Origin: an uncultured Pelagibacteraceae bacterium | GTDB taxonomy: Bacteria > Pseudomonadota > Alphaproteobacteria > Pelagibacterales > Pelagibacteraceae | NCBI GenBank assembly: GCA_902563435.1 | Contig: CACEXE010000001.1 | Location: 1 to 64,000, forward strand | Direction of reading: 5' to 3' | DNA length: 64,000 nt | Made by a program: the position numbers and the translations under genes | In this document: one piece after another, positions 472-21,519 of the stretch | Layout of the letters: each line of letters starts with the position of its first letter | Position numbering within the stretch: position 1 is the first letter of the stretch | Notes under the pieces: generated by a model | Told to the model about the DNA's origin: nothing | The model's input: the letters and a program-made list of their open reading frames with translations, nothing else | Database searches by the model: none

Positions 472-1179
472 ATGGCATTTTTTGAGGGAAATAAAATGAC
501 AGGAGGATACGGCGATGGTCCTGATATTATTAGCTCATGCACTATCAATGTTAATAGAGGAGAGATAGTTGCTATTCTTGGACCAAACGGAGCTGGAAAA
601 TCTACAGCAATGAAGGCAATGCTAGGATTGTTAAATCTAAAATCAGGTAATATTTCAATTGATGGAGAAGATATTTCTAAACTATCTCCTCAAGAAAGAG
701 TAAAAAAGGGAATATCATTTGTGCCACAAACTAGAAATGTTTTTGCAGAACTTACTGTAAAAGAAAATTTAGAAGTTGGTGCTTTTTTAAGAACAGATAA
801 TGTAAATAATGTTATCGAAGAAATATATGATCTATTTCCAATTTTAAGAGAAAAAAAAGATCAAGTTGTAGGACAATTATCAGGAGGGCAAAGACAACAA
901 GTAGCTTTGGGACGTGCTCTAATGATAAAACCATCTGTTCTTATGTTAGATGAGCCTACAGCAGGTGTTTCCCCAATAGTTATGGATGAATTATTTGAAC
1001 ACATTATTAGAGTTAAAAATACAAAAGTAGCAATCATCATGGTCGAGCAAAATGCAAAACAGGCTTTAAGCATTTCTGATCGAGGATATGTGCTTGTTAC
1101 TGGTGAAAATAAGTTTGAGGGGTCTGGTAAGGAATTATTAAATGATCCAGAAGTTAGGAGATCTTTCTTAGGAGCTTAG
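472..1179 (+). CDS. livF: Branched-chain amino acid ABC transporter ATPase LivF
   Basis: This is a complete 235-residue ABC ATPase, the usual LivF length. It has Walker A GPNGAGKS at residues 37-44, the Q-loop in VPQTRNVF, LSGGQ at 136-140, Walker B LMLDEP at 156-161 and the switch histidine replaced by Gln in MVEQNAK. That EQN form is characteristic of LivF rather than LivG. The ATG directly follows the livG stop and livH begins one base after its stop, so all are one transcript. It should pair with LivG to drive the LivHM permease. There is no strong ribosome-binding site, so translational coupling is likely. Confidence 0.93.
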   Translation: MAFFEGNKMTGGYGDGPDIISSCTINVNRGEIVAILGPNGAGKSTAMKAMLGLLNLKSGNISIDGEDISKLSPQERVKKGISFVPQTRNVFAELTVKENLEVGAFLRTDNVNNVIEEIYDLFPILREKKDQVVGQLSGGQRQQVALGRALMIKPSVLMLDEPTAGVSPIVMDELFEHIIRVKNTKVAIIMVEQNAKQALSISDRGYVLVTGENKFEGSGKELLNDPEVRRSFLGA

Positions 1180-1180
1180 T

Positions 1181-2191
1181 ATGGATTTAATTAATGCAGT
1201 AATAGTTTTATTGAATTATACAATTATTCCAGCCTTAACTTATGGCTCTCAGTTAGCTCTTGGAGCAATTTTTGTAACTTTAATATACGGTATTTTAAGA
1301 TTTGCTAACTTTGCAACTGGAGACATGATGTCATTTGGTACAATGTTTGCTGTACTTTTGACTTATTACTTTCAATCAATCGGAATTAGCTTTGGTTTTC
1401 TTCCCACTGCTTTGCTCACTATTCCCTTTGCAATTTTTATGATGATTTTATACATGCTTTTAATTGATCAAACAGTTTTTAAATATTACAGAATTAAAAA
1501 AAGTCCACCAGTACAGCTTGCTATGGTTAGTGTTGGGGTAATGTTTGTGACCCAAGCAGTCATAAGGATTATAATTGGACCAACTGACCGACGGTTTTTA
1601 GATGGTGAAAAATTCATTTTAAAAGCAACTGAATTTAAAGAAATGACAGGTCTTGCGGAAGGTTTGACAATTAAATCCACGCAAATGATAACAATTGTAG
1701 TTACTATTATTGTTGTTGCTATTATGTTTTGGTTTTTAAATAAAACTAAGACTGGAACTAGTATGAGGGCCTACTCAGATAATGAAGATTTAGCACTTCT
1801 TTCTGGAATAGATCCAAAAAAAGTAGTTCTAATTACTTGGATCATTGCTGGAATATTAGCAACAATTGGTGGGATTCTTTATGGTTTAGACAAAAGTTAT
1901 AGACCGTTTGTGTATTTTAATAATATGCTACCGATTTTTGCTGCTGCGATAGTTGGTGGAATTGGAAATCCATATGGAGCGTTCTTTGGAGGTTATGTTA
2001 TAGCATTTGCTGAAATATTTTTGACTTATGCATATAAAAGATTTTTAGTTTATATTTTGCCAGAGTCACTAGAACCAAATTCATTGATGCAATTATTATC
2101 AACCGATTATAAATTTGCTATTTCTTTTTCGATATTAGTAATTGTTTTAATATTTAGGCCGTCAGGCATATTTGAAGGAAAACGTATATGA
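1181..2191 (+). CDS. livH: Branched-chain amino acid ABC transporter permease LivH
   Basis: This is a 336-residue, strongly hydrophobic protein with about eight membrane segments. Near residues 195-235 it carries the cytoplasmic coupling region beginning MRAYSDNEDLALLSGID, followed by the GGILYG segment typical of LivH. The conserved glycine-rich stretch AAAIVGGIGNPYGAFFGG is also present. The family usually has about 300 residues, so the protein is slightly long, with extra length in the loop around 120-165. It overlaps livM by four bases (ATGA), which indicates translational coupling. It forms the inner-membrane channel with LivM; the substrate is unknown. Confidence 0.93.
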   Translation: MDLINAVIVLLNYTIIPALTYGSQLALGAIFVTLIYGILRFANFATGDMMSFGTMFAVLLTYYFQSIGISFGFLPTALLTIPFAIFMMILYMLLIDQTVFKYYRIKKSPPVQLAMVSVGVMFVTQAVIRIIIGPTDRRFLDGEKFILKATEFKEMTGLAEGLTIKSTQMITIVVTIIVVAIMFWFLNKTKTGTSMRAYSDNEDLALLSGIDPKKVVLITWIIAGILATIGGILYGLDKSYRPFVYFNNMLPIFAAAIVGGIGNPYGAFFGGYVIAFAEIFLTYAYKRFLVYILPESLEPNSLMQLLSTDYKFAISFSILVIVLIFRPSGIFEGKRI

Positions 2192-3558
2192 GAAATTATT
2201 TAAATATAATTGTAGCATATTCGATAATGATGCTTCTAATAATTTTAGTTGGAATCTTTCAATCCTGGTCTATTGCGCTAACAATTTTTAATTATTGTAT
2301 GATTTCTGCAGTAATGACCTTGGGAGCAAATATTCAATGGGGTTATGCTGGTTTAATAAATTTTGGAATCATGGGTTATACGGCATTAGGAGGTTTAGCA
2401 GTAGTATTAGTATCTGTATCACCTGTTCCAGAAGCCTGGAGTGTGGGCGGAGTAAATATGATGACTTGCCTAGGAATAATTATAATAATGATTTTTTCTA
2501 CAAGGTATATTTTAAAAAATATTCAAAAATCTAAAAAAAGAAATTATTTAATAGCTGGAATAATTATAGTTGGATTAATCCTAATAAAAATAATTGCTGG
2601 ACCTGCAATTGAACAAATAGAAGCTGTTGATCCTGCAAAGACAGGGTTTCTTGGAGGACTTGGGTTACCAGTTTTATTCTCATGGATAGTTGGAGGTCTT
2701 TTTGCTGCTGGGTTAGCATTTATTGTAGGGAAAGTTGCTTTAGGATTAAGAGCAGATTATTTAGCAATTGCTACATTATTAATAGCTGAAATTGTTGTTT
2801 CCATTATTAAACATGAAGATTGGTTGGCAAGAGGTGTAAAAAACGTTATTGGATTAAAAAGACCAGCTCCTTATGAAATTGACCTACAAACTTCTCCTTG
2901 GTTTATAAATTTAGTAGAAAAATTTCACTCAGCAAAATTAGATCTAGCAAATTCATTGTCGGAAAGACAAGATATTTTAAATCAGTTAGTGATTGATGCT
3001 TCATCTGTTTATGTAAAACTATGTTTTGCAGGCATGTTTTTAGTTGTAGTTATAATTTTATTAATAATTACACAAAAGGCTCTTTACTCGCCTTGGGGTA
3101 GAATGATGAGAGCAATAAGAGATAATGAAGAAGCTGCAAGTGCAATGGGCAAGAATGTAGTTAAACAACATTTATTTATATTTATTCTAGGATCAGCAAT
3201 AGTTGGTATTGCTGGAGCTATGATGGTAACTAATGATGGGCTGTTTACCCCAGGAAGCTACAGACCAATGAGATATACCTTTGTAATTTGGGTCATGGTT
3301 ATTGTTGGTGGTACAGGAAATAACTTTGGAGCAATTCTAGGGGGATTTGTTGTATGGTTTTTATGGGTAGAAGCAGCACCAATTGCTTTGTTCTTTATAA
3401 ATTTATTTACAGCTCATTTACCTGAAACAAATGAAATCAAAGTTCATTTAATAAATAGTGCTCCATATTTTAGATTTTTACTTGTTGGTATTGGGCTTCT
3501 TTTTATAATGAGATTTAGACCTCAAGGAATAATTCCGGAAAAAATTATAAAACAATAA
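2188..3558 (+). CDS. livM: Branched-chain amino acid ABC transporter permease LivM
   Basis: This is a 456-residue permease with about ten hydrophobic segments. It carries the LivM hallmarks: QWGYAGLINFG near the N-terminus, RADYLAIATLLIAEI in the middle, the coupling segment GRMMRAIRDNEEAASAMGKN, and VGGTGNNFGAILGGF near the C-terminus. Family members are commonly 300-425 residues. The excess lies in a segment around residues 100-155 and in a polar loop around 225-275, which may be a periplasmic elaboration. The start overlaps the livH stop. A LysE-family gene follows six bases later and may share the transcript. Confidence 0.92.
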   Translation: MRNYLNIIVAYSIMMLLIILVGIFQSWSIALTIFNYCMISAVMTLGANIQWGYAGLINFGIMGYTALGGLAVVLVSVSPVPEAWSVGGVNMMTCLGIIIIMIFSTRYILKNIQKSKKRNYLIAGIIIVGLILIKIIAGPAIEQIEAVDPAKTGFLGGLGLPVLFSWIVGGLFAAGLAFIVGKVALGLRADYLAIATLLIAEIVVSIIKHEDWLARGVKNVIGLKRPAPYEIDLQTSPWFINLVEKFHSAKLDLANSLSERQDILNQLVIDASSVYVKLCFAGMFLVVVIILLIITQKALYSPWGRMMRAIRDNEEAASAMGKNVVKQHLFIFILGSAIVGIAGAMMVTNDGLFTPGSYRPMRYTFVIWVMVIVGGTGNNFGAILGGFVVWFLWVEAAPIALFFINLFTAHLPETNEIKVHLINSAPYFRFLLVGIGLLFIMRFRPQGIIPEKIIKQ

Positions 3559-4219: not shown

Positions 4220-5410
4220 TTATCTTTGTTTTTTGTCTTTAAACTTACCGCCTTTAATTTCTTTTTCTATAAAGGCACCTGCTGCTTCTCCAACATCAGT
4301 AAATTCAACACTAGATGCTCCTTCGTAGTTAACTGCTTTACCACTAGCAAGTAAATCTAATGCTTTTTTCAATTCTCCTGGATAAATTTTTTCTCCTGGA
4401 GCATTTGCAACAGACATTACATTTGCTTGAACAGTAGCTCTATCAGCTTTTCCACCAGCTTGCATTGCAAGTACAATCAAAGCTGCAGCATCATAAGACT
4501 CTGAAGTATAAGGTCCAGATGAATCGATTCCTGCTCCGCCAGCTACACCTTTAAATATTGTAGCACCTTTACCCATTGATCCTGGCAAAGATCCAAATGA
4601 TTTGTTTAGATCATTTCCGAATCTGTCAGTTAAAGAGTCACCGATCATTCCATCAGATAAAACAAATACGTCAAACGCACCTGAGTCTAATGAACCATCA
4701 ATGATACTTCCACCAGCTTGGTCTAAGTAACCTAACACAGCTAAAGCATCGCCACCTGCTGCTGCCAATGTTGCAACTTCAGCACCGTAGTCTCCTTTAC
4801 CTTCTTCATGAGCTGTAACAACTGTTACGTTTATTCCATGAGCTTTAACAGCTGCAACATATACATCTGCTAAACCCTTACCGTAGTCGTTGTTAGTGTG
4901 TGTAACTGCAATACTTTTAACTTTTCTATCTTTAGTAATATCTGCTAATACTTGACCACCTCTTGCGTCAGATGGAGCAGTTCTAAAGAAATATCCATTA
5001 TCATTAAGATCAGTTAATCCTGGAGAAGTAGCTGATGGTGAAATCATAACTACACCATTTGGAACAGCAACGTTAGTTGCAATAGCTCCAGTTACACCAG
5101 AACAATCAGCACCCATAATTGCTACTACACCGCCAGATATTAAACCTTCTGCAGCAGCTGTTGCAGCAGCTGAGTCAACACAAGTTGAATCTGCTCTCTC
5201 AACAGAAATCTTCTTTCCTCCAAGTAATGAACCTGAATCTGAAGCTTCTTTAAATGCAAGCTCTGCTGATGCAGCCATTGCTGGAGTTAGGGATTCAATA
5301 GGACCTGTAAATCCTAAAATAATTCCCATTTTAATGCCATGTCCATCTGAATATGCTTTAGTTGCAAAGCAAGAAACAAATACAAACATCGCTAATACTA
5401 GTTTTTTCAT
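4220..5410 (-). CDS. Leucine/amide-type ABC transporter substrate-binding protein (LivK-like)
   Basis: This 396-residue precursor has a signal peptide: a charged MKK, a hydrophobic core VLAMFVFVSCFA and a likely cleavage near KAYS-DGHG. The mature part matches type 1 periplasmic binding proteins (Peripla_BP_6). It opens with the strand IKMGIILGFTGPIESLTPAM and contains GVVMISPSATSPGLTD, typical of the ligand-binding cleft between lobes. The protein is Ala/Gly/Asp-rich and acidic, as are periplasmic proteins of marine bacteria. It probably delivers ligand to the LivFGHM system encoded convergently next door. It has its own Shine-Dalgarno sequence and terminator, so it is transcribed alone. The exact ligand (branched-chain amino acid, urea or short amide) is not resolved. 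Confidence 0.88.
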   Translation of the reverse strand: MKKLVLAMFVFVSCFATKAYSDGHGIKMGIILGFTGPIESLTPAMAASAELAFKEASDSGSLLGGKKISVERADSTCVDSAAATAAAEGLISGGVVAIMGADCSGVTGAIATNVAVPNGVVMISPSATSPGLTDLNDNGYFFRTAPSDARGGQVLADITKDRKVKSIAVTHTNNDYGKGLADVYVAAVKAHGINVTVVTAHEEGKGDYGAEVATLAAAGGDALAVLGYLDQAGGSIIDGSLDSGAFDVFVLSDGMIGDSLTDRFGNDLNKSFGSLPGSMGKGATIFKGVAGGAGIDSSGPYTSESYDAAALIVLAMQAGGKADRATVQANVMSVANAPGEKIYPGELKKALDLLASGKAVNYEGASSVEFTDVGEAAGAFIEKEIKGGKFKDKKQR

Positions 5411-5414
5411 ATAT

Positions 5415-5420
5415 TCCCTC
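5415..5420 (-). promoter_or_regulatory. Strong Shine-Dalgarno of LivK-like gene
   Basis: GAGGGA lies four bases before the ATG. Most genes in the window have no comparable site, so this one stands out and supports the start choice. Confidence 0.7.
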
Positions 5421-5421
5421 T

Positions 5422-5435
5422 AATTGTTAACAATT
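5422..5435. promoter_or_regulatory. 14-bp perfect palindrome in the LivK-like leader
   Basis: AATTGTTAACAATT is a perfect inverted repeat just upstream of the Shine-Dalgarno sequence and next to an AT-rich TATATAA element that could be a -10 box. The position suits a repressor operator or an mRNA 5' structure. In AT-rich DNA a chance origin is possible. Confidence 0.35.
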
Positions 5436-5483
5436 TATATAAACAAAATTAAATCCTATTGATTTTAATTTTCAATGAGAAAA

Positions 5484-6341
5484 TTATCTCATTTTTTGAG
5501 CAAAAAACACTGAAGTAATGACAATTATTCCTCCAATTACTGTTACTAGAGATGGAATCTCCCCAAAAATAAAAAAAGTAAGGATTAGACCAAATACAGG
5601 GAATAAAGCGTAGAATGGCAATACCATATCAAGAGGATAAAATTTATAAAGATAGAACATCATTAAATGTCCAAGCAAAGAAATAATTGCTCCAGCGTAT
5701 AAAACTGTGAACCAACTTCCTAAACTTATATTTTTTATTATTTGAAATGTATTTCCCTCAAATATTGCAGACAATATTATTAAAATTATAAATCCTGTGA
5801 AGCTCATTATAGTATTTGTAAATTTAACATCTAATTCTTTTAAATATCTCGAAAATACTTGGGATAGTCCGTAGAAAAAAGCCATACCACAAATAAGAAG
5901 TGATCCTATTATTTCGTCTACTACTTTTGGGTCGAATGCGAGTATGACAATACCAAAAAAAGATATCATAATTAATATCCATTTTTTATAACTTATTTTT
6001 TCATCTAAAAATATTGAGCTTAATATAATTCCAAAAGGAATTGAAAGTTGAGCCCCTATTGTAATTGGCGCAAGTATACTTGATGCATTTATAGATAAAT
6101 ATAAAAACATATTTACCGCAACACCAAAACATAATGAAAACCCAATTAAAGGAATAATATATTTTTTATCTATACTTTGAATTTTAAAAAATGGGATTAA
6201 ACAAATAAAAACAACAGCCATTCTTAATGAACCAAAAAGAATTGGTGGAATAGTGTCGTTTAATCCAAGCTTGCCAGTTGGATATGCACTTCCTAATAAA
6301 AATACAACAAATAAAATAAGTAAAGTATGTTTTGCAGACAA
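5484..6341 (-). CDS. EamA-family (DMT) transporter
   Basis: This 285-residue protein has ten predicted membrane segments in two homologous EamA repeats, about residues 5-135 and 145-280. The N-terminal segment has GSAYPTGKLGL and the second repeat ends in a TVIGGIIVITSVFFAQ segment, both usual for drug/metabolite transporters. It starts three bases after the aldehyde dehydrogenase stop and is the last gene of a six-gene operon, so it probably moves the substrate or a product of that pathway. EamA proteins export or import many metabolites, and sequence alone does not tell which. Confidence 0.85.
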   Translation of the reverse strand: MSAKHTLLILFVVFLLGSAYPTGKLGLNDTIPPILFGSLRMAVVFICLIPFFKIQSIDKKYIIPLIGFSLCFGVAVNMFLYLSINASSILAPITIGAQLSIPFGIILSSIFLDEKISYKKWILIMISFFGIVILAFDPKVVDEIIGSLLICGMAFFYGLSQVFSRYLKELDVKFTNTIMSFTGFIILIILSAIFEGNTFQIIKNISLGSWFTVLYAGAIISLLGHLMMFYLYKFYPLDMVLPFYALFPVFGLILTFFIFGEIPSLVTVIGGIIVITSVFFAQKMR

Positions 6342-6344
6342 AAA

Positions 6345-7826
6345 TTATCTTATAGAGAAAGGATCTAAAGTTGGTTCATCAGATGTGTAATACCAAGTTG
6401 TCTTAACTCTAGTATAATCTTTAATTGAGTCCATTCCCGCTTCCTTTCCATATCCACTATCTTTAATACCACCAAAAGGTGCTGATGGAGAAATCAATCG
6501 ATAAGTATTTACAAATGTAATACCTGCTCTTATTGCATTAGAAACTCTTAGACCTCTGGAGAAGTCACTTGTATAGACCCCAGAGGATAATCCATATTGA
6601 TTATCGTTCATTTTCTCTATTACCTCTTTTTCCGTATCAAATTTCATAACTGATAAAACTGGTCCAAAAAGCTCGTTTTCTGCAGTTGGAAGATTATGAT
6701 TATCACATTCAATTATTGTAGGAGGAAAGTAGTATCCCTCATTTGAAAATGGATGCCTCTCACCACCACACTTTATTTTTCCACCTTGTTCTGTGGTTTT
6801 TTTTATGTTTTTTTCAATAATTTCTAATTGTTTATAATTACTTAATGGTCCCATTTCTGTGTCTGGATCCATGGGAGCACCAATTTTTATTTTTTCAGCT
6901 CTTTTTGTGAGTTTGTCAAGGAACTCATCGTAAATTCCTTTTTGTAGATATAATCTTGAACCAGCAATACAACTCTGTCCGCTAGCTCCAAATATTCCTG
7001 CAGTAATTCCATTAATAGCATTTTCTTGATGAGCATCATCAAATACTGCAACAGGACTTTTTCCTCCAAGTTCTAAGCTTACTTCTGATAAATTTTCTGC
7101 TGAATTTCTAATTATATGTCTTGCAGTTTCGGGTCCTCCTGTAAAAGCAACTTTTTCAACTAAATTATGTGTAGTTAAAGCCTTTCCACATGGGTCTCCA
7201 AATCCTGTAATAACATTAACAACCCCTTTAGGAATACCAGTTTCTTCAATAAGTTTTGCAAATTCAAACATTACTGCTGGAGCAAGTTCTGATGATTTAA
7301 TAACCACCGTGTTTCCCATAGCTAAAGCAGGCGCAAGTTTTGTAGCTGTTAAAAACATTTGAGAATTCCATGGAACAATCGCAGCGATAACACCAATAGG
7401 TATTCTTGAAGTTATGGCTTGAATATTTGGTTTATCTATTGGCAGAACTGTGCCTTCGACCTTGTCTGCCATACCTGCATAATAATCATAATACTCAGCA
7501 ATATAATTTGCTTGTTTATTTGTTTCTCTATAAAGTTTTCCAGTATCTATAGTTTCAATTTTTCCAAGTAATTCTGCGTTATCTCTAAGCTTATTTCCAA
7601 TAGCTCTTAGAAACTTTGCTCTTTCACGCGGTAATATTTTAGGCCAATCTCCTTCAAAGGCTTTTTGAGCTGCTTGAACCGCTTTATCTACGTCAGAAGC
7701 ACTTGCCTCAGGAACAACTGCCCAGGGTTTATTATCTTCCGGATTTAAAGTTTCAAAAGTTTTTTTAGTATCAGAGTCAACCCATTGTCCCCCTATAAAC
7801 ATTTTATATTTTTTTAATTCAGGCAT
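6345..7826 (-). CDS. NAD(P)-dependent aldehyde dehydrogenase
   Basis: This is a full-length 493-residue ALDH superfamily enzyme. The oxyanion Asn is in VPWN (N154), the general base Glu is E252 in LELGGKSP, and the nucleophile Cys is C286 in ASGQSCIAGSR. The C-terminal PFGGIKDSGYGKEAG is also typical. It oxidises an aldehyde to a carboxylate in the cytoplasm. Its start overlaps the upstream alpha/beta hydrolase by eight bases, so the two are translated together and probably act in one pathway that begins with a luciferase-like monooxygenase. The aldehyde is unknown; betaine aldehyde is conceivable because the window is rich in betaine genes, but nothing in the sequence decides this. Confidence 0.92.
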   Translation of the reverse strand: MPELKKYKMFIGGQWVDSDTKKTFETLNPEDNKPWAVVPEASASDVDKAVQAAQKAFEGDWPKILPRERAKFLRAIGNKLRDNAELLGKIETIDTGKLYRETNKQANYIAEYYDYYAGMADKVEGTVLPIDKPNIQAITSRIPIGVIAAIVPWNSQMFLTATKLAPALAMGNTVVIKSSELAPAVMFEFAKLIEETGIPKGVVNVITGFGDPCGKALTTHNLVEKVAFTGGPETARHIIRNSAENLSEVSLELGGKSPVAVFDDAHQENAINGITAGIFGASGQSCIAGSRLYLQKGIYDEFLDKLTKRAEKIKIGAPMDPDTEMGPLSNYKQLEIIEKNIKKTTEQGGKIKCGGERHPFSNEGYYFPPTIIECDNHNLPTAENELFGPVLSVMKFDTEKEVIEKMNDNQYGLSSGVYTSDFSRGLRVSNAIRAGITFVNTYRLISPSAPFGGIKDSGYGKEAGMDSIKDYTRVKTTWYYTSDEPTLDPFSIR

Positions 7827-8592
7827 TTTGTATATGATCTTTAATTGCTTTATTTACATCATATGAGCATTCAATACTACATAGATGTTTGCCTACAGGT
7901 ATTATTTTTAATTCAGAGTTTTTAATTTTTTTACTCAGATTATCAGACATTTCTGGAGTTGAGCCTACATCACCTTCTCCAGTCATCACAAGTGTTTTGA
8001 CATTAATATTTTCAAATTTTTCGTTATCTTTATGATTTACAAACAACGAGTAAACTTTAATAAAGTTGTCCATATTGTTATTGTTAAGTATTGAGAAAAT
8101 TTTATCTGAAATTAGAGGATTTTTCTCAATAAAATCCTTATTAAACCATCTATTGAGTGCGTCTTTTGTCAGTTTTTTATCTTTTTTTGTCTGTTCAAAC
8201 CTTTCATTTACTATCTTCTGTTCATTATCAGATCTATTAAATATTGAGCACAACAATGTTAGGGATTTCAATCTATCACTAAATCTCGTTGCAAAGTTTC
8301 TTGCAATCAAAGAGCCTATTGAAAATCCAATAAGGTGAATTTTACTAAATTTTAATTCATCAATAAGATCAATAATTTGATCTGAAAAATCATCAAAACT
8401 TATTTTTTCTTTATTTAAAGGTGTTCTACCGTGTCCAAGGATATCATAAATTAAAACTGTATTATCAAATTCATTAATTTGTGGATCCCATATATTATGA
8501 TCAAGACCTACACCATGAATAAATACTATTGGAATTCCTTCTTTTTGATTTAGTTTATAAAATGTACCTTTAGAGTCTGTTGCATTGATCAT
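7819..8592 (-). CDS. Alpha/beta-fold hydrolase (operon A copy)
   Basis: This 257-residue hydrolase has the nucleophile elbow GFSIG (S91), a likely acid D208 in GEGDVG and catalytic H236 in GKHLCS, plus the oxyanion-hole segment IHGVGLDHN near residue 25. It resembles 3-oxoadipate enol-lactonase-type esterases. It shares landmarks with the hydrolase at 21520-22290, including RWF, FIEKNP and MTGE-x-D-x-G-x-TP, so the two are paralogues and both sit in clusters with luciferase-like monooxygenases. Predicted role: hydrolysis of an ester, lactone or amide made by the upstream oxygenase. The substrate is not known. Confidence 0.85.
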   Translation of the reverse strand: MINATDSKGTFYKLNQKEGIPIVFIHGVGLDHNIWDPQINEFDNTVLIYDILGHGRTPLNKEKISFDDFSDQIIDLIDELKFSKIHLIGFSIGSLIARNFATRFSDRLKSLTLLCSIFNRSDNEQKIVNERFEQTKKDKKLTKDALNRWFNKDFIEKNPLISDKIFSILNNNNMDNFIKVYSLFVNHKDNEKFENINVKTLVMTGEGDVGSTPEMSDNLSKKIKNSELKIIPVGKHLCSIECSYDVNKAIKDHIQNA

Positions 8593-8594
8593 TA

Positions 8595-9182
8595 TTATTT
8601 TGGATCAATGCCCATCTCCTTCATATCTTGGTATCTATCGCCTGTTCTTGCATGAGCTCTACCTGTCGAAGCGCCACCAATTGCAATAACAATTTCATCA
8701 TCAAATGGAGCATCATGAATTGTAAACTCATGTGTAAGATAATATGGTCTTAAACCAGAGTCGGTTTTGTGCATCATTGGAATAGATATTTTTGATCCAG
8801 CCGGACCTCTTGTATTCGTAAAACTTAAATAAGAAGTTCCTCCAACAGCATCTCTGAACTTATTTCCAAATCTTAATGTATGAATAAATGCTGATGCATG
8901 CTCTATTTCTCCATTCAGTCCAACCACACCTGCTTTCCCATACGCTAATATTTTATCAGGAGAGCCTATTTCTTTTATAAGTTCAGGAACCAATAAATCT
9001 CCAAGTTTAGGAGCTAGATCTAAAATAATGGGTTTTAAGTCTTCCACAAAACCTTTTCCATCCCAAGGATTTTTAAAAACTGCAGCAACAGAAACCATCA
9101 AAACTGGTTCTTTAGCTTCTTTTCCACCTTCAATAAAAGTCTTATCTACAAATTTAGTAAACTTACGTAATTCTAATTTCAT
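8595..9182 (-). CDS. AA_synth (DUF1185) family protein
   Basis: This 195-residue soluble protein matches the amino-acid-synthesis family (formerly DUF1185). Recognisable segments are KEPVLMVSVAAVFKNPW, GKAGVVGLNGEIEHASA, GGTSYLSFTNTRGPAG and IGGASTGRAHARTGDR. The family's biochemical activity has not been established as far as I know. The gene overlaps the stop of the ThDP enzyme by four bases and ends two bases before the hydrolase start, so it is an integral member of the operon. The conserved His and Arg near HASAFIHTLRFG and GRAHARTGDR would be candidate active-site residues; that is a guess from conservation-like patterning. Confidence 0.78.
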   Translation of the reverse strand: MKLELRKFTKFVDKTFIEGGKEAKEPVLMVSVAAVFKNPWDGKGFVEDLKPIILDLAPKLGDLLVPELIKEIGSPDKILAYGKAGVVGLNGEIEHASAFIHTLRFGNKFRDAVGGTSYLSFTNTRGPAGSKISIPMMHKTDSGLRPYYLTHEFTIHDAPFDDEIVIAIGGASTGRAHARTGDRYQDMKEMGIDPK

Positions 9183-10879
9183 TTTTTAATTCTATGTGTA
9201 AAGCTATCTCTTCTAAAACTGTATAACGCTTTTGGATCTACATCAACATCTATAACAACTGGTTTATTTACTTTTAATGCACTTTTTACGGCCTCATTAA
9301 CTTCTGATAATTTTTTAACTTTAATTCCTTTAGCACCATATAGTTTCGCAACTTCATCAAAAGGAGGACTTTGAATATCAGCTCCTAAATATCTTTCACC
9401 ATAGAAATCTTTTTGATAAGCTTTTTCTGCCCCCCAACTTTTATTATTCATTACAATTGTAATTGTGTTAATGCCGTGCTCTACAGCTGTACTTAATTCA
9501 GAAATAGTCATTCCAAATCCACCATCACCCATTAAACTAACAACTGTTTTATTAGGTTTTGCAACCTTTATTCCCAAACCACATGCAAATGAGAAGCCTA
9601 CTAAACCAAAATCAAGGGGCGTGAAAAGCGCAGGAGGATTGTAATATTCTAAAGCATCTGTTGCTTGAAGGCAGAGTGTGCCAGCATCGAGTGTTATTGC
9701 AGTATTTTTCGGTAGTACTTTTCTTAATTCTTTGAATAGACCTTTTGGTTGGATTGGAAAATTTTTTGACTTTATATTATCTCTATTTTTAAGAAATTTT
9801 GATCTCTCTAATAAAAAACTATTTGTCCACTCTTTGTAATTGAAAATTTTCTTTTGTTTTCTTAATTCAGCTAAAATTTGACTTGTCACCAGAGCAGCAT
9901 CCCCATGAATTCCTACATTAACTGGAAAGTATCTTCCTATCATTGTTTTTTCTAACTCAATTTGTACAATTTTAGCGTTTTTATTTATATTGTCATACGA
10001 ATAGAAAGTGGAATTGAAACCAAGTCTTGTACCAATTGCAATAATTAGCTCTGCCTCTTTGACTAATCTTGATGCAACAATATTTCCTCTAGGCCCCATT
10101 TGTCCTGCATTTAACTTATGACTGAATGGAATCGCATCTCCATGTCCTGCTGCAGTTACAATTGGAATATTTAAAAATTCAGCAAGCTTTGTTACAGACT
10201 TAAATTTTGAATTATATTTTATTCCTCCTCCAGCAACAATCACAGTTTTTTTTGAGTTGAGAATAAGTTTTACAGTTCTGTCAATTGAATTCTTTTTACT
10301 TTTTAAGTCACTTTCAGTTTTATAGGATTTTTTATTTTCATTAATCTTAAACTTTGCAGTATCAGAAAGAACATTTCTTGGAAGATTTATACAAACTGGT
10401 CCTCTTCGAGGCGACATTGCAAGATTAAAAGCATCTCTAAAAGCCATTGGTATATGACTTGCCTTTTTTACTGTCCAAGTTTTTTTTGTTATAGGATCAA
10501 AAAGCGATTGTTGATCAAGTCCTTGAAAGGCATCTTCCATCTTGTCTTTAGTAGAATATAAACCTGCAATAGATACCACAGGAGAAAATGCTGCTTTTGC
10601 TTGCGCTATGCCTGTAACGAGATTAGTTGCTCCGGGACCGTTTTGACCAGCAATTATTACACCTGGTTGATTAGAAGCTCGTGCATATCCATCTGCCATA
10701 TGCGTTCCAGTTCTTTCGTCTCTTACACCGATAAATTTAATTTTTTTTTCATGATACAAAGCATCAAACATTTCCATTGTAGCTGAACCAATTAAGCCAA
10801 AGACATGTTTAACTTTTTCTTTTTTTAGAGATTTCACTGCCGCTTGACCACCGGTCAAGGTATTCTTGGACTTAATCAC
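9179..10879 (-). CDS. Thiamine-diphosphate-dependent enzyme, acetolactate synthase-like
   Basis: This 566-residue protein has the three-domain ThDP layout. The cofactor-activating Glu is E55 in VRDERTGTHMADGYAR, the central FAD/nucleotide-like domain spans roughly 195-340, and the ThDP motif runs from GDG at 451-453 to NN at 478-479. The start is GTG, overlapping the luciferase-like gene stop by four bases. It could decarboxylate a 2-oxo acid or join carbon units. Biosynthetic acetolactate synthase is unlikely because no small subunit or ilv gene is nearby. Together with an oxygenase, hydrolase and aldehyde dehydrogenase it looks catabolic; a 2-oxo acid decarboxylase yielding the aldehyde for the ALDH is the simplest inference. 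Confidence 0.85.
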   Translation of the reverse strand: MIKSKNTLTGGQAAVKSLKKEKVKHVFGLIGSATMEMFDALYHEKKIKFIGVRDERTGTHMADGYARASNQPGVIIAGQNGPGATNLVTGIAQAKAAFSPVVSIAGLYSTKDKMEDAFQGLDQQSLFDPITKKTWTVKKASHIPMAFRDAFNLAMSPRRGPVCINLPRNVLSDTAKFKINENKKSYKTESDLKSKKNSIDRTVKLILNSKKTVIVAGGGIKYNSKFKSVTKLAEFLNIPIVTAAGHGDAIPFSHKLNAGQMGPRGNIVASRLVKEAELIIAIGTRLGFNSTFYSYDNINKNAKIVQIELEKTMIGRYFPVNVGIHGDAALVTSQILAELRKQKKIFNYKEWTNSFLLERSKFLKNRDNIKSKNFPIQPKGLFKELRKVLPKNTAITLDAGTLCLQATDALEYYNPPALFTPLDFGLVGFSFACGLGIKVAKPNKTVVSLMGDGGFGMTISELSTAVEHGINTITIVMNNKSWGAEKAYQKDFYGERYLGADIQSPPFDEVAKLYGAKGIKVKKLSEVNEAVKSALKVNKPVVIDVDVDPKALYSFRRDSFTHRIKK

Positions 10880-12045
10880 GATACTTTTTTAACTTCAGTA
10901 TCTAGATCATCTTTAAAGTTAGGCATTACCTTTTCAGTGAATAGTTTAATACTTTTCATGCAATCTTCATGTTTAACACCTGGAAAGTTAGACCAGACTT
11001 GAAGATTTTGAAGATTAAGCTCTGATTGAAGTTCTTTAATCTTATCTGTTACATATTCAGGAGTACCAAATAACATATTTCGCTTATGTAAAAACTCGTA
11101 ATTAAGAAGATCTAATTTACCCTTTGTTTCTGGAAGCTCTTCACCGGGATCCATGTGATTACCAAGACCTCTCCAATGACAAACCCATTTCATATAATTT
11201 ACCATATGTTGTCCTGCTTTTTCTTTAGCCTCTTCCATAGTATCAGCAACAAACATATCTCTAACGAGAGTAACACCTTCACCTAAAGGAACATTTTTCT
11301 TAGTAACTTCAGATCTTTTATTTTTGTAAGCTTCAAATCTTATTTTCAATGCTTTAACTGTAGGTATCCACATAATTACATTTATGTTATTTTCTGCAGC
11401 CCACTCTATAGATCTTATACCATCAACAACTTGATGTATTGGAGGGTGTGGATTTTGATAAGGCTTTGGAAGAACACTAATTTTTTTCATTGTGTTATCT
11501 TCCATATTCATAAATTCTTCACTTGGCGGGCTCATGTCATGCTGCCAAACATAATTTGGTGAAGGGTAAGTATAAAATTCTCCATCATGATTAAAAAATT
11601 TTTCTGACCATGCTTTTTTCAAAATTTCTAATGTTTCAGCAAATAATCTAAAATTTTTTGCCTGATCTTTTAAATCTGCTTCTTTGTTTAAATTAATTGC
11701 CTCTCTCCCATAAACTCCTCTAGCAACACCAACTTCTACTCTTCCTTTTGAAAGTTGATCAAGTGTAGCAATATCTTCTGCTAATCTTATAGGATTATGA
11801 AAAGTTATTACATTTGCTGCTTGTCCTATTCTTATATTTTTTGTTCTTGCTGCAGCATCTGCTCCTAGCATTAGGGGATTGGTGCACGACTCCATTCCTT
11901 CATGGTTAAAATGGTGTTCAGTAAACCAAATTGAATTCCAACTGTTTTGATCACAATATTCGGTGATCTGTTTAGTTTCATCTAATAATTTATGATACGG
12001 TTTGTGTGTCCAATTTGTAGTATTACAAAAATAACCAAACTTCAT
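10876..12045 (-). CDS. LLM-class flavin-dependent oxidoreductase (bacterial luciferase-like), operon A
   Basis: This is a 389-residue (beta/alpha)8 luciferase-like monooxygenase. Landmarks are WFTEHHFNHEG near residue 50, the IRIGQAANVITFHNP strand, and GRVEVGVARGVYGREA, which forms the FMN pocket. An in-frame start 42 bases upstream is possible, but the ATG chosen here sits seven bases from a perfect AAAGGAGG and the family starts with M-K-F-G-x-F, so I take the shorter form. Such enzymes use reduced FMN and O2 to oxygenate or cleave C-N, C-S or C-C bonds. It is the first gene of a six-gene operon and has the strongest ribosome site of any enzyme in the window. No flavin reductase gene is adjacent. 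Confidence 0.87.
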   Translation of the reverse strand: MKFGYFCNTTNWTHKPYHKLLDETKQITEYCDQNSWNSIWFTEHHFNHEGMESCTNPLMLGADAAARTKNIRIGQAANVITFHNPIRLAEDIATLDQLSKGRVEVGVARGVYGREAINLNKEADLKDQAKNFRLFAETLEILKKAWSEKFFNHDGEFYTYPSPNYVWQHDMSPPSEEFMNMEDNTMKKISVLPKPYQNPHPPIHQVVDGIRSIEWAAENNINVIMWIPTVKALKIRFEAYKNKRSEVTKKNVPLGEGVTLVRDMFVADTMEEAKEKAGQHMVNYMKWVCHWRGLGNHMDPGEELPETKGKLDLLNYEFLHKRNMLFGTPEYVTDKIKELQSELNLQNLQVWSNFPGVKHEDCMKSIKLFTEKVMPNFKDDLDTEVKKVS

Positions 12046-12049
12046 TAAG

Positions 12050-12057
12050 CCTCCTTT
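12050..12057 (-). promoter_or_regulatory. Near-perfect Shine-Dalgarno deciding the LLM start
   Basis: AAAGGAGG lies a few bases before the ATG at 12045. It argues against the in-frame start 14 codons upstream and implies high expression of the operon's first enzyme. Confidence 0.8.
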
Positions 12058-12145
12058 AAAAATTAATTTAAAGACGACCGATCCCACTTTCGTATATGAT
12101 TTTACGACGAGTTATGTATCGCTTTATGTGATAATATTATTATTC

Positions 12146-13117
12146 TTACCTTTGATATTCAATGAATTTTTTAAGGGATTTATTAAGAAATTTATCATAT
12201 CTGATACCACTTTTTGCTAATTTCTTATTATTAAGAAATGAAAGATTCATTTTAAAGTCATATGAGGGTTCAAAAAAGAAAGGAACTGAAAGTCTTTTTT
12301 GCTTGTTCCATAATACCCTATGATTAGTTGCTTTAAACTTGCCTTTGCTTAAATATTCTAGCGCTCTACCTGTATTCACTACCAAGGCATTTTTATTGAA
12401 AGGGACATTATACCATTTTTTTGTTTTTCGGTTTTGAACTTGCAAGCCACCTTTTTTGTTTTGATATAAAACTGTGAAAATACCACTATCAACATGCGTC
12501 TCACATCCAAGTGCTACCCCATCTTCTTTAGATATTTCGATTGGTTTAGATTGATTAGGGTAATAATTAAATCTTAAAGTACTGAGTGTTTTAAGTCTTG
12601 AAAAAACTTTTTTAGATAAATTAGTGTCTTTTTTATAAATTTTTATAATACTTTTAAAAAGAGTTTCGCTTAGATTAAATAAATTTTCATAATAATCAGC
12701 TAGTTTTTTGATAGATTGTTTGTTAAATGATTTTTCTATACTCAAATGCTCGATGTATTGAGTTCTAGTTTTTTTGGAAAAACCCTTTGTCACTTTGAAG
12801 TCACCTAAGTCTAATCCTTCTTTTCCATTGACATCATTTGGAAAATATCCTCGATAAATATTTTTGTTTTTTTTATTCCATTTCTTTGGAGCTAATTTAA
12901 GTTTGTTGTTTTTATTTGATTTAAAAAAATTTTCTCCAATTTTGCATACTTTATTTATTTGTTTTAATTTAATTCCATGACCAATTATTTGAAAAAAACC
13001 AACCTCGACACAGGCTTTTTCAATTTCTCTTGTTATTTTTAATGTTGCTTTTGCATTAAAGTTTTTTTTTAAAATAGGATTAATATTTATTGTTGGAATA
13101 TAATTTTTTCTTATCAT
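12146..13117 (-). CDS. Fe(II)/2-oxoglutarate oxygenase, isopenicillin N synthase-like
   Basis: This 323-residue protein of the 2OG-Fe(II) oxygenase family has an N-terminal DIOX_N-like part (VGFFQIIGHGI near residue 40) and a C-terminal jelly-roll core. Iron ligands are the His and Asp of ETHVDSGIFT and the distal His in KATNHRVLW; the 2OG-binding pair R-x-S is seen in KRLSVPFFFEPS. Relatives hydroxylate, cyclise or desaturate small molecules. It is unusually Lys/Asn-rich even for this window. It overlaps the EamA gene start by four bases, so the two form a unit that extends the betA-tauD-cdhB operon. The substrate is unknown. Confidence 0.85.
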   Translation of the reverse strand: MIRKNYIPTININPILKKNFNAKATLKITREIEKACVEVGFFQIIGHGIKLKQINKVCKIGENFFKSNKNNKLKLAPKKWNKKNKNIYRGYFPNDVNGKEGLDLGDFKVTKGFSKKTRTQYIEHLSIEKSFNKQSIKKLADYYENLFNLSETLFKSIIKIYKKDTNLSKKVFSRLKTLSTLRFNYYPNQSKPIEISKEDGVALGCETHVDSGIFTVLYQNKKGGLQVQNRKTKKWYNVPFNKNALVVNTGRALEYLSKGKFKATNHRVLWNKQKRLSVPFFFEPSYDFKMNLSFLNNKKLAKSGIRYDKFLNKSLKKFIEYQR

Positions 13118-14064
13118 CTATTTGCTGGTGTGTCTGTAGCAATCATTTGTCCTCGTACTTTTTCTCTAAAATAAATATACGCACCAGCACCAATAATTAT
13201 TGATGCTCCAAGAAAAGTTCTTGGCACTGGAATTGTTTCAAATAATATGTAACCAGCTACCATTGCAAAAACTATGTATGAATACTCAAATAATGAAACA
13301 ACCGATGGTGATGCAATACTATAAGCAGTAAATACACAAAAAAACGAAATCGATGCAACTATTCCCATAATTAAAACATAAGGCCAAGCCTCCCCTGGAT
13401 TAGTAAACCATTCTCTTACAATAAATTGCAAAGTTGGATCTGTAAAAGTATTAAATTTTCCATCGCCACTAACAAAAAATATTACCAAACTCGCAAATAA
13501 TGCAAAAATATAAAGCCATGTCATTTGAGTATAGATAGTATCTTTATCAGATGTATATTTTGTTATGGTCATTGAGATTGAATAGCAAAGCGCACATGCT
13601 ACAGGTGCTAATTTAAAGAAATTAAAATCATCTAAAGATGGATTTAAAACAATCAATACACCAATAAATCCAACAACTATTGCACTCCATCTTCTAATTC
13701 CAATTTTTTCTTTTAAGAAAAATTTAGCAAACATAGACATAAAGAATGGGCAGGAGAAAAATAGTGCACTTGTCATAGCAAGTGTCATAAAGGTCAGTGA
13801 AATATAAAAAAAACTAAAACCAAAGAAAAAACATACAACTCTTATTAGTGTTAATAATGGGTAATGTGTTTTTAAAGATATTGTTTTTTTAGTTATTAAA
13901 ACAAAGGATAGCAAAAATACTGATTGTATAAGGGTTCTTCCAAAATAAAGCTCGAATAAAGCAATATCCTCAAAAATAAACTTAATTAGAGAATCTTGTA
14001 TTGAAAAAAAAGCCATACCAGTCATTATAAAAAAAATACCTCTGGTATTTTGGTTTGTATCCAT
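13114..14064 (-). CDS. EamA-family (DMT) transporter
   Basis: This is a 316-residue, ten-segment membrane protein with two EamA repeats separated near residue 150 (FKLAPVACALCYSISMTITKYTS). The first repeat has ALFFSCPFFMSMFAKFFLKEKIGIRRW, a classic end-of-repeat charged turn. It is coupled by a four-base overlap to the downstream 2OG oxygenase and lies 35 bases after the choline dehydrogenase-like gene. It most likely exports or imports a metabolite of that unit. It is one of five EamA transporters in the window, each attached to a different catabolic block. Confidence 0.85.
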   Translation of the reverse strand: MDTNQNTRGIFFIMTGMAFFSIQDSLIKFIFEDIALFELYFGRTLIQSVFLLSFVLITKKTISLKTHYPLLTLIRVVCFFFGFSFFYISLTFMTLAMTSALFFSCPFFMSMFAKFFLKEKIGIRRWSAIVVGFIGVLIVLNPSLDDFNFFKLAPVACALCYSISMTITKYTSDKDTIYTQMTWLYIFALFASLVIFFVSGDGKFNTFTDPTLQFIVREWFTNPGEAWPYVLIMGIVASISFFCVFTAYSIASPSVVSLFEYSYIVFAMVAGYILFETIPVPRTFLGASIIIGAGAYIYFREKVRGQMIATDTPANR

Positions 14065-14099
14065 GAGACACCTATATCAAATCAGTAGTGATAATAATA

Positions 14100-15686
14100 T
14101 TAATTATTTAAAATTGCCTCTGAACCTTTTTCAGCAATCATTAGTGTAGGAGCATTTAGGTTTGCACTTGGAATTTCAGGTATCACTGATGCATCAATTA
14201 CTCTTAAATTTCCAATCCCATTTACCTTCAAATCCTGGTCTACTACTGCCATACCATCAACTCCCATTTTGCATGTTCCACAAGGATGATAAGCAGTATC
14301 TGCTTTAGATCTAACATATTCATTTAATTCATCATCTGACTGTGCATCAAAACCTGGCCCAACTTCATCACCAGCATGCTCTGCTAAAGCTGGCTGTGAT
14401 AGAATTTTTCTTGCAACATGAATACATTCTCTTGTTTGTTTAAGATCTTCTTCTTCTTTTAAATAGTTAAATAAAATTTTAGGATAATCGTATGGATCTG
14501 AGGAATTAAGTGTTATTTCACCTCTACTTTTTGGATGATTTGGACTTGCATGTAATTGGTAACCATGTGAGTCAGGATCTTCTAGGCCATGATTTATCAC
14601 AAATGATGGAAAAAAATGAAATTGAATGTTAGCAACTTTTCTTTCTGGCGATGATTTTGCAAAACCACCAGCCTCCAAAAATGATTTTGAGCAAGGTCCA
14701 GATTTAAACATAAACCATTGCATACCTGCTAAAATTTTAGGTATTAGTTTTGTGTATGTGTAAAGTGTATTAGGAGTTTTACATTTTTGCTGTATGTAAG
14801 TTTCAAGATGATCTTGTAAATTTTTTCCAACCCCCTTTGAGTGATGAATAACTTTAATACCATTATCTCTAAGATGGGTTTCGTCACCTATACCAGATAA
14901 CATTAATAATTGTGGAGAATTTATAGATCCTCCACTCAAAATTACTTCTTTATTTGCATAAATATTTTCAACTTTGTTATTTATTTTTACTTGAAGACCA
15001 ACTGCTTTTTTTCCTTCAAATAGTATCTTTTCAACAAATGAGTTTTTTAAAATATTTAAATTTTTTCTATTTTTAACAGGGTTTAAATAATACTTGGCGA
15101 CTCCAGCTCTCTCACCTTGATGCATTGTTGTATCAAACATACCAAAACCCTCTTGTTCCTCACCATTCATATCTATATTTGTTTTGTGACCTGCTTCAGC
15201 TGCAGCATCAATAAATGCTTTAAATAGTGGATTTGAATTTTTAGATAAATTTATCGGAAGTGGACCCAATGATCCTCTGTATTGATTTTCACCTTCAGAC
15301 CAAGTTTCAATCTTCTTAAAATAAGGAAGAACTTTATCATAGGACCAATCATCCAAACCAAAGTTTTCCCATCTTGTATAGTCATCTCTATTTCCTCTTA
15401 CAAAGACCATTCCATTATGAGATGAGCATCCTCCAATCATCTTTCCTCTAGGGCAAAAAACACGTCTATTGTTCAAATATGGCTCAGGTTCTGAATAATA
15501 TTTCCAATTATATTTGGGATCATGCATCGTATATAGAAGAGCTAATGGCATTTTAACCTTCCAAATATCACTAGATCCACCTGCCTCAAAAATAGCTACA
15601 GAATTGTTAGGATTCTCAGACAGCCTATTTGCTACTACACATCCAGCTGAACCAGCACCAACTATGAGATAATCGAAAGCTTGCAT
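14100..15686 (-). CDS. betA: GMC flavoprotein, choline dehydrogenase (BetA)-like
   Basis: This 528-residue FAD enzyme shows the N-terminal dinucleotide motif DYLIVGAGSAGCVVANRL, the flavin contact RGKMIGGCSSHNGMVFVRGN, and the active-site His in TAYHPCGTCKMG. Along its whole length it follows the choline dehydrogenase pattern, including NNRR after the YNWKY segment, LQDHLETYIQ, NIQFHFFP and NLNAPTLMIAEK. It lacks the last 20-30 residues found in E. coli BetA. Choline dehydrogenase oxidises choline to betaine aldehyde. GMC members with other alcohols are common, so substrate is likely but not certain. Its stop-start spacing to the TauD gene is zero bases; the thioesterase of carnitine breakdown lies in the same operon, so several routes to betaine converge here. 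Confidence 0.72.
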   Translation of the reverse strand: MQAFDYLIVGAGSAGCVVANRLSENPNNSVAIFEAGGSSDIWKVKMPLALLYTMHDPKYNWKYYSEPEPYLNNRRVFCPRGKMIGGCSSHNGMVFVRGNRDDYTRWENFGLDDWSYDKVLPYFKKIETWSEGENQYRGSLGPLPINLSKNSNPLFKAFIDAAAEAGHKTNIDMNGEEQEGFGMFDTTMHQGERAGVAKYYLNPVKNRKNLNILKNSFVEKILFEGKKAVGLQVKINNKVENIYANKEVILSGGSINSPQLLMLSGIGDETHLRDNGIKVIHHSKGVGKNLQDHLETYIQQKCKTPNTLYTYTKLIPKILAGMQWFMFKSGPCSKSFLEAGGFAKSSPERKVANIQFHFFPSFVINHGLEDPDSHGYQLHASPNHPKSRGEITLNSSDPYDYPKILFNYLKEEEDLKQTRECIHVARKILSQPALAEHAGDEVGPGFDAQSDDELNEYVRSKADTAYHPCGTCKMGVDGMAVVDQDLKVNGIGNLRVIDASVIPEIPSANLNAPTLMIAEKGSEAILNN

Positions 15687-16514
15687 TTAATTTGGATTAT
15701 CGCCCTCTACTGCAATCCTGTCCATAACTCTTTCATGACCCAATCCTCTGCCAGGAAAAAAATCAGTCAGACCTTGATGAAGGGTGCTTCTATTGTCCCA
15801 AATTGCTACAGCATTTTCAGTCCATTTAAACCTGCATGTAAAATCAAGTCTTTCTTGATGTAAAAATATTTCATTTAAAATATCTGAACTTTCATTTTCA
15901 TCTAAATCTAAAATTCTTTTTGTATACATTGAATTTACATACAAAATTTTTTTTCCTGTTTCAGGATGAGTTCTAACTACTGGATGGGAATTTGAATATT
16001 CATCTAGATTACCATTCCCTTCCATTTCCTTATATGCTTCAACAAATGCTGCCGCACCTAAAGAACTATGAATGGCTTTTTTATCCTTAACCTTATCTTT
16101 AATTTCATCACTTAATGTATCGTAAGCAATTTCCATATTAGAAAACATTGTATCTCCACCAACTGGAGGAACTTTAATTGATCTTAATATAATTACTTTT
16201 GTTGGTTTTGGATTATAACTTACGTCAGTATGCCAAGTTTCACCCCATTGTCTTTTTTCTTCTGGAGCTTTAATTATTCTTAGTATTTCAGGATAATCTT
16301 TTCTTCCTTTAACATAAATATGTCTTTCTAATGGACCAAAATGTTTTGCTAAATTTATCTGTTCTTCCGATGTAATATCTTGATCTCTAAAGAATAAAGC
16401 CTTGTGTTCTAATAATAAATTATTTATCTTTTTCCAATTTTCTAAAGAACTATCTTTTAAATCGATGCCTTTTACTTCTGCTCCTAATGCACCTGATACC
16501 AATTTTATTTCCAT
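15687..16514 (-). CDS. TauD/TfdA-family Fe(II)/2-oxoglutarate dioxygenase
   Basis: This 275-residue enzyme has the TauD fold: N-terminal LGAEVKGIDL, the first iron pair in WHTDVSYNPKP, the substrate strand DTMFSNMEIAYD, the distal His in DNRSTLHQGL and the 2OG-binding Arg in HERVMDRIAV. Members release sulfite from taurine or hydroxylate alkyl acids and amines, and enzymes of this family also act on trimethylamines. Placed between a choline dehydrogenase-like gene and a betainyl-CoA thioesterase-like gene, it may prime a related quaternary amine. Taurine cannot be excluded, but no sulfite-handling or taurine-transport gene is nearby. Confidence 0.86.
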   Translation of the reverse strand: MEIKLVSGALGAEVKGIDLKDSSLENWKKINNLLLEHKALFFRDQDITSEEQINLAKHFGPLERHIYVKGRKDYPEILRIIKAPEEKRQWGETWHTDVSYNPKPTKVIILRSIKVPPVGGDTMFSNMEIAYDTLSDEIKDKVKDKKAIHSSLGAAAFVEAYKEMEGNGNLDEYSNSHPVVRTHPETGKKILYVNSMYTKRILDLDENESSDILNEIFLHQERLDFTCRFKWTENAVAIWDNRSTLHQGLTDFFPGRGLGHERVMDRIAVEGDNPN

Positions 16515-16517
16515 AAT

Positions 16518-16985: not shown

Positions 16986-16987
16986 TT

Positions 16988-17848: not shown

Positions 17849-17849
17849 C

Positions 17850-18581: not shown

Positions 18582-18610
18582 GATTTTAAAATATAGTTGA
18601 AAAATAAAAT
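18582..18610. promoter_or_regulatory. Divergent intergenic region between aldolase and BKACE operons
   Basis: Only 29 bases, nearly all A/T, separate two divergently transcribed catabolic operons. Both promoters must overlap this gap or the coding ends. No operator or Shine-Dalgarno sequence is evident. The layout suggests co-regulation. Confidence 0.4.
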
Positions 18611-20442: not shown

Positions 20443-20478
20443 ATATCTAAAGAAAACTTAAAATGGTAATTTAGTTGT

Positions 20479-21513: not shown

Positions 21514-21519
21514 ATATCT

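Follow-up and report, generated by a model that had tools for sequence, protein, structure and literature searches.

What compound is broken down by a run of six closely packed genes in a SAR11 bacterium, and is the pathway a new one? The question is raised by positions 5,484 to 12,045 of a 64,000-nucleotide stretch of DNA (the window; contig CACEXE010000001.1, assembly GCA_902563435.1) from an uncultured Pelagibacteraceae bacterium (genome G000; 1.18 Mb, 41 contigs, 78% complete). Here a luciferase-like flavin monooxygenase (LLM), a thiamine diphosphate (ThDP) enzyme, an AA_synth/DUF1185 protein, an alpha/beta hydrolase, an aldehyde dehydrogenase (ALDH) and an EamA-family transporter follow one another. 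SAR11 bacteria are among the most abundant marine heterotrophs. An earlier reading of the bare DNA (the original prediction) regarded this locus as the window's best candidate for an undescribed pathway. This view was not borne out, since operons of the tgn kind hold AA_synth, a TgnC-type ALDH, an alpha/beta hydrolase and an LLM in one cluster. Judging from the sequences, the pathway is not wholly undescribed and looks like a variant of the tgn/hom kind, with another ring-opening LLM and an added ThDP enzyme. We see about an even chance that an N-methylpyridinium carboxylate is the compound whose ring this SAR11 variant opens, and by analogy the likeliest substrate would be homarine (N-methylpicolinate), with trigonelline second.

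Kinship with tgn-type operons was seen on plasmids. Operons composed of a GntR regulator, AA_synth, hydrolase, flavin reductase (about 310 residues), LLM (about 345 residues) and ALDH are present on named plasmids of Chimaeribacter, Rhizobium etli (p42c), Leisingera and Acinetobacter sp. PK01, and for PK01 NCBI annotates the reductase as tgnA, the oxygenase as tgnB and the dehydrogenase as tgnC, of trigonelline catabolism. Identity to these four operons is 55-58% for the window's AA_synth and 49-52% for its ALDH (50.5% to the annotated tgnC). Agrobacterium rubi carries a succinate semialdehyde dehydrogenase (SSADH) gene together with AA_synth, near reductase-ALDH-LLM-hydrolase genes; identities to Agrobacterium are 53% for AA_synth, 41% for ALDH, 30% for the hydrolase and 27% for the LLM. 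The SAR11 copies form their own clade among the operon copies in the AA_synth tree (100/99). In a quick ALDH tree, with long branches flagged, the SAR11 ALDH joins 30 other cluster ALDHs with a support of 97 in the Shimodaira-Hasegawa-like approximate likelihood ratio test (SH-aLRT), the outgroup side consisting of four outgroup ALDHs and the Agrobacterium ALDH, which falls apart from the clade. For the AA_synth and LLM trees, 10 of the 20 loci from the order were used alongside the window and three genome-contig loci were omitted; LLM rows shorter than 250 aa and ALDH rows shorter than 300 aa were dropped. These comparisons place the ALDH, by prediction, in the TgnC type. The AA_synth protein appears to be of the TgnF kind, by way of the plasmid-operon copies and of the homology between TgnF and DUF1185 (PMC7913881) and not of the TgnF sequence itself. 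In the part of that paper drawn on here, TgnF of Acinetobacter baylyi is treated as homologous to the DUF1185 protein and is said to stimulate TgnE-dependent succinate semialdehyde oxidation, while the authors could not show such stimulation for their own DUF1185 protein (PMC7913881). Two solved AA_synth/DUF1185 structures were matched by sequence, and the operon gives the family, which has no settled function, a context within a ring-opening module that is used more than once. In PK01 (L170 1-6407), sarcosine-oxidase-type subunits, folD and purU adjoin the tgn-named operon, which may tie it to the use of N-methylglutamate or methylamine.

The genes are joined by conservation. A total of 501 genome-contig stretches encoding an AA_synth relative were found, and 100 SAR11 loci (L031-L130) were taken, namely the best 80 of these 501 matches and 20 loci from the order chosen by us; this sample leans to near relatives, and duplicates between loci were kept. 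Conservation was counted in the 72 loci with at least 4 kb upstream and at least 3 kb downstream of AA_synth, a neighbour being accepted on the same strand up to 6.5 kb upstream or 3.5 kb downstream. Near AA_synth, 72/72 loci have LLM, hydrolase and ALDH, 63 have the ThDP enzyme, 60 a 2-oxoglutarate (2OG) oxygenase and 50 EamA. The gene-neighbourhood search proposed in the original prediction finds LLM, AA_synth, hydrolase and ALDH conserved together, and a co-inherited catabolic gene set with the core LLM-(ThDP)-AA_synth-hydrolase-ALDH is supported. Also confirmed, by open reading frames and by Pfam matches for all six genes, were the families, the single strand, the overlaps of 4, 4 and 8 bp and the gaps of 2 and 3 bp (from LLM to EamA -4, -4, +2, -8 and +3). 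The spacing itself had been taken as a sign of an operon, which does not hold: of the window's 48 same-strand junctions, 30 measure at most 10 bp (median 2.5 bp over all), and the six genes are part of a 14-gene same-strand run (4220-18581). Tight packing is usual here, so spacing alone is no mark of an operon.

Of the order's 197 genomes, 62 carry AA_synth, each in single copy (49 of family f1 and 13 of family f2), and of the control genomes 0/14 do. Among the best 80 of the 501, 8 loci, all Pelagibacteraceae, encode an AA_synth protein with 100% identity to the window's across its 195 residues. In the 197 genomes, a sample with less bias than the 100 loci, the ThDP enzyme (E <= 1e-140) occurs in 39, always within 3 kb of AA_synth (39/39), and is missing in 23 of the 62 AA_synth carriers. 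Given this and the position of EamA, probably a flanking gene (see below), the view of the six genes as a single unit is not supported.

Related clusters exist in other Alphaproteobacteria. AA_synth (E <= 1e-40) was found in 23 of 385 genomes of the class, the window's own included, and of 23 places outside the window 22 were read, G566 being left unread. A TgnB-type LLM operon stands at nine of these 22 places (L199, L205, L207-L213; no reductase detected in L209, L210 and L212), an Agrobacterium-like LLM at one (L201), a SAR11-type LLM at two (L156, L157) and a ThDP-bearing cluster at two (L214, where no LLM was detected, and L215, with a TgnB-like LLM). At L156 there are in addition a flavin reductase and a Rieske oxygenase, the latter closest, among solved proteins, to carnitine monooxygenase chains. 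In L157 (2211-13510, genome G420), a pair of SAR11-type LLM paralogues lies within 8 kb and encloses a polyamine-type ABC transporter and ALDH; AA_synth and hydrolase are adjacent, and an isochorismatase-family gene is nearby. In L250, a DAO/FAO_M/GCV_T protein, as in dimethylglycine-type demethylases, lies behind ALDH-LLM-hydrolase-ThDP, and in L247 a formate-tetrahydrofolate ligase gene precedes the cluster by about 2.4 kb.

N-methylated pyridine compounds are made by plants and algae. TgnAB, in work of Perchat and colleagues (2018), reportedly splits C5 from C6 by reductive oxygenation, giving an N-formyl, N-methyl amine with an aldehyde, while TgnC is said to oxidise the aldehyde and TgnD to carry out a hydrolysis. 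Modelled on this chemistry, the SAR11 LLM, with reduced flavin mononucleotide (FMN) from an unlinked reductase, would oxygenate the ring and split C5 from C6, and the product would be an N-formyl, N-methyl amine that bears a free aldehyde. The TgnC-like ALDH would oxidise this aldehyde and the alpha/beta hydrolase would take off the N-formyl group as formate. The TgnF-like AA_synth protein may help the release or tautomerisation of an unstable enamine or aldehyde product, and the ThDP enzyme, only in some strains, may act downstream on a 2-oxo acid or aldehyde. Homarine would pass through N-formyl-N-methyl-dehydroglutamate semialdehyde and the dicarboxylate to formate and an N-methyl enamine, which would yield N-methylglutamate, or 2-oxoglutarate and methylamine. 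The oxygenation, aldehyde oxidation and hydrolysis foreseen in the original prediction are supported as the probable chemistry.

The choice of substrate draws on the kinship of the downstream enzymes, on the neighbours in related clusters and on ecology. The genes for N-methyl and formyl chemistry in L156, L250, L247 and PK01 fit an N-methylated substrate, and in the window the operon adjoins choline/carnitine-type genes, which we count in favour of this reading. Mgd is N-methylglutamate dehydrogenase. The portion consulted of one report gives it a part in homarine catabolism (PMC13390433), with which the N-methylglutamate route agrees. Homarine is described, in the part used here of another, as a diatom osmolyte with fast drawdown by Ruegeria pomeroyi (PMC12817926). 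Should the operon degrade homarine or a related N-methylated heterocycle, it would mark, with its genes present in many SAR11 genomes, a carbon and nitrogen currency between phytoplankton and SAR11. The hom operon of homarine catabolism resembles the SAR11 operon in its ecological setting. It is reportedly, according to Ferrer-Gonzalez and colleagues (2026, Nat Microbiol), a five-gene operon plus regulator, a gene number equal to that of the AA_synth-hydrolase-reductase-LLM-ALDH operons with GntR; the SAR11 operon differs in having no GntR or reductase and in having ThDP. The abstract of that work is said to name SAR11 among the carriers, and if so the AA_synth locus would be meant, since AA_synth occurs once per genome. 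The literature searched gave no description of a SAR11 LLM-AA_synth operon, and we do not claim the operon as unpublished.

Several observations weigh against an N-methylpyridinium substrate and against close kinship with tgn. The SAR11 LLM is only 22-29% identical to the LLMs of the four plasmid operons, and in the tree it falls in another subfamily than all 18 TgnB-like LLMs (SH-aLRT 100), so that by sequence it would not be classed as TgnB type. A flavin reductase of PF01613 was found in 0/6 operon-bearing SAR11 genomes, with 13 of 14 controls positive, and a Pfam scan found none within the SAR11 operon, unlike most tgn-type operons; no TgnA-type reductase stands in or near it. The operon also has no SSADH or mgd-type gene inside it, its gene order differs from that of tgn, and the pathway of TgnA-F in Acinetobacter baylyi has, to our knowledge, no place for a ThDP enzyme. 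The hydrolase shares superfamily and position with the four plasmid-operon hydrolases and is, at 21-32% identity, too distant for an orthologue call. The tgn names in PK01 come from NCBI annotation rather than experiment. Finally, at five of the 22 places in the class AA_synth and hydrolase were found with LLM and ALDH undetected (L196, L197, L198, L202, L206), and at three AA_synth was found alone (L200, a 4.5-kb contig, L203 and L204). The original prediction had said that a characterised homologous operon with a known substrate would speak against it. Such an operon exists to a large extent in the tgn kind, whose AA_synth and ALDH are clearly related to those of SAR11; the LLM is not an orthologue, and so homology leaves the substrate unsettled. 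A TgnB-type LLM elsewhere in SAR11 was sought and rejected, the matches in 62 of the 197 genomes being just 25-35% identical. FMN_red-like genes (PF03358) are present in 6/6 operon-bearing SAR11 genomes. AA_synth was not among the annotated genes of the LLM neighbourhoods in Peribacillus and Sulfitobacter.

The non-orthologous LLM, the added ThDP enzyme and the lack of a linked reductase would all be accommodated if the SAR11-type LLM opened a nitrogen heterocycle other than N-methylpicolinate or N-methylnicotinate. A distinct LLM subfamily and a ThDP carboligase/decarboxylase might then open and channel a ring unrecognised as a marine substrate, LLMs having been swapped before a re-used TgnF-TgnC-hydrolase module with a change of substrate; AA_synth, hydrolase and ALDH would process an N-formyl or N-acyl aldehyde and the ThDP enzyme a 2-oxo acid. 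The two LLM paralogues flanking the module in L157 agree with this, as if several LLM specificities fed one module. However, the N-methyl and one-carbon genes of related clusters suit N-methylated substrates, and no gene indicates another named ring. We therefore regard another ring as a tentative possibility, clearly behind an N-methylpyridinium carboxylate. Sulfur, which the original prediction had allowed beside nitrogen, fares much worse: nitrogen is supported as likely, and the NCBIfam model scores give sulfur no support. Organosulfur catabolism would have an LLM of the alkanesulfonate or dimethylsulfone kind free sulfite, with an Xsc-kind (sulfoacetaldehyde acetyltransferase) ThDP enzyme and the ALDH taking the carbon. 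The best NCBIfam model for the ThDP enzyme is indeed the Xsc subfamily NF005713, superfamily and domain order are shared with Xsc, and the demethylase-like fusion protein of L250 is followed (11134-14595 for the two) by a gene resembling D-cysteate sulfo-lyase (516 bits against a cut-off of 450). Yet the scores are far under both Xsc cut-offs (402/620 bits; TIGR03457, 386/676), acetolactate synthase models are nearly as near (399 bits), and the LLM reaches 55.5/383 bits for SfnG and 31/518 for the alkanesulfonate monooxygenase model. As AA_synth, ALDH and hydrolase have their kin in tgn-type operons, we judge this explanation improbable.

A pyrimidine pathway of the Rut kind, in which the LLM would stand for RutA, AA_synth for RutC and the hydrolase for RutD, is a shade less probable still. 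It shares an LLM, an alpha/beta hydrolase and a small helper protein of chorismate-mutase-like fold, and the hydrolase matches the RutD model at 67 bits; this is far under the cut-off of 238.5 bits, RutA is not among the LLM model matches listed (25 of 26), and the Pfam scan found no RutB- or RutE-like gene inside the operon. Least credible is that unrelated genes came to stand in a row by chance because the genome is densely packed. Tight spacing is the rule in the window, as such a run would have it, but the constant company of LLM, hydrolase and ALDH with AA_synth extends over two SAR11 families, the same genes stand together, in other gene orders, in other Alphaproteobacteria, and two SAR11 loci (L232, L233) are without the whole block while keeping its flanks.

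These two operon-free loci keep the solute-binding protein at one end and EamA2, choline-dehydrogenase-like and carnitine-type genes at the other, and no gene of the stretch from EamA through the 2OG oxygenase was detected in them. The gap from the solute-binding protein to EamA2 is 115 bp in L232 and about 3.5 kb in L233. The operon behaves as an accessory cassette in SAR11. L235, which has no flank gene, was not counted. An EamA relative (51-54% identity) lies beside the solute-binding protein in the absence of the enzymes in L230 and L231, two of the six operon-free loci holding that protein, so EamA is probably a flanking gene outside the core; as the pathway's own transporter it was rejected. 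The Liv-type ABC transporter was likewise rejected as a clue to the substrate. Its binding protein is widespread without AA_synth (143 of the 197 genomes, 88 of them lacking AA_synth), and its distance from AA_synth is no more than 10 kb in 42 of 49 f1 carriers and in only 1 of 13 f2 carriers.

The ThDP enzyme is, by its model scores, predicted to be acetolactate synthase/Xsc-like, under the cut-offs of both. At E <= 1e-140 it was found in nine genomes of the class besides the window, of which six, at 58-63% identity, had their ThDP loci read (G496 and G503 among them); the three at 42-43% were left unread as ThDP loci. ThDP genes of 58-63% identity stand in ALDH-hydrolase clusters in L214, L215, L247 and L250, in the last two without an adjoining AA_synth, and outside such clusters in one genus (L248, with an adjoining TRAP transporter, and L249, on a short contig). 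The ThDP enzyme is thus a recurrent member, paired with either LLM subfamily.

Other ThDP loci were also noted. A partial copy with three TAA stops lies beside AA_synth in G119:C9:17685-18764, either a decaying gene or an assembly error. On the megaplasmid of R. pomeroyi (L221 4351-13671), a ThDP relative (40%) is found behind a trimethylamine-methyltransferase-family (MttB) gene, near a class III aminotransferase and two FAD oxidoreductases, in what looks like a betaine-type demethylation cluster; no LLM or AA_synth was among the 16 annotated features around it. In L033, ThDP and AA_synth are separated by one additional gene (8985-9612), and L042 shows a gap of equal size. By its LDAGCGTG motif we take the gene to be an S-adenosylmethionine-dependent methyltransferase, and an N- or O-methylation step would be odd within a demethylating context.

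Table 1. Genes of the operon and its neighbours in the window
Feature	Position	Strand	Remarks
LLM-class (luciferase-like) flavin monooxygenase	10876..12045	-	389 aa; PF00296 151 bits; proposed ring-opening oxygenase, from sequence
ThDP enzyme	9179..10879	-	566 aa; GTG start; TPP_enzyme_N/M/C 115/105/127 bits; optional member
AA_synth/DUF1185 protein, TgnF-like	8595..9182	-	195 aa; PF06684 217 bits vs gathering score 27
Alpha/beta hydrolase, proposed deformylase	7819..8592	-	257 aa; PF00561 81 bits
Aldehyde dehydrogenase, TgnC-like	6345..7826	-	493 aa; PF00171 535 bits
EamA-family transporter, probably flanking gene, non-core	5484..6341	-	TTG start; PF00892 88 bits
2OG-Fe(II) oxygenase, upstream, same strand, possible accessory enzyme	12146..13117	-	PF03171 + PF14226
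Periplasmic binding protein of Liv-type ABC transporter; neighbour, no specific partner	4220..5410	-	Peripla_BP_6
Remaining Liv-type ABC transporter subunits	4-3558	+	

For the LLM, the ATG at 12045 was preferred as start because homologues begin MKFGY, the mechanical open reading frame opening at GTG 12087. In the hydrolase, G89-x-S91-x-G93 and H236 are kept in at least 95% of 46 alignment rows. The core genes have dN/dS of 0-0.18 in 6/7 pairs, and the seventh, distant pair (L119) reaches 0.37 in the hydrolase and 0.29 in EamA, all ratios being rough since dS exceeds 1 in many comparisons. Promoter-like sites (38 vs a shuffled mean of 43.4) and terminator-like sites (6 vs 3.6 expected, standard deviation 1.9) were uninformative, and the LLM structure model, with a mean predicted local distance difference test score (pLDDT) of 56, was not used.

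An osmolyte-type neighbourhood extends over 14100-26220. It contains a choline-dehydrogenase-like GMC enzyme (721 bits, cut-off 605), TauD-like, 4HBT thioesterase, CitE-like and BKACE-like genes, a carnitine-dehydrogenase-like gene (346/414 bits) and a gamma-butyrobetaine-dioxygenase-like gene (323/415 bits), the latter two under cut-off, and a ProV-like ABC protein, judged by its sequence alone. A second LLM (344 aa), followed directly by a second alpha/beta hydrolase (256 aa), is encoded on the plus strand at 20479-22290. This pair adjoins the BKACE-like and carnitine-dehydrogenase-like genes, and LLM-hydrolase pairs are recurrent in the region.

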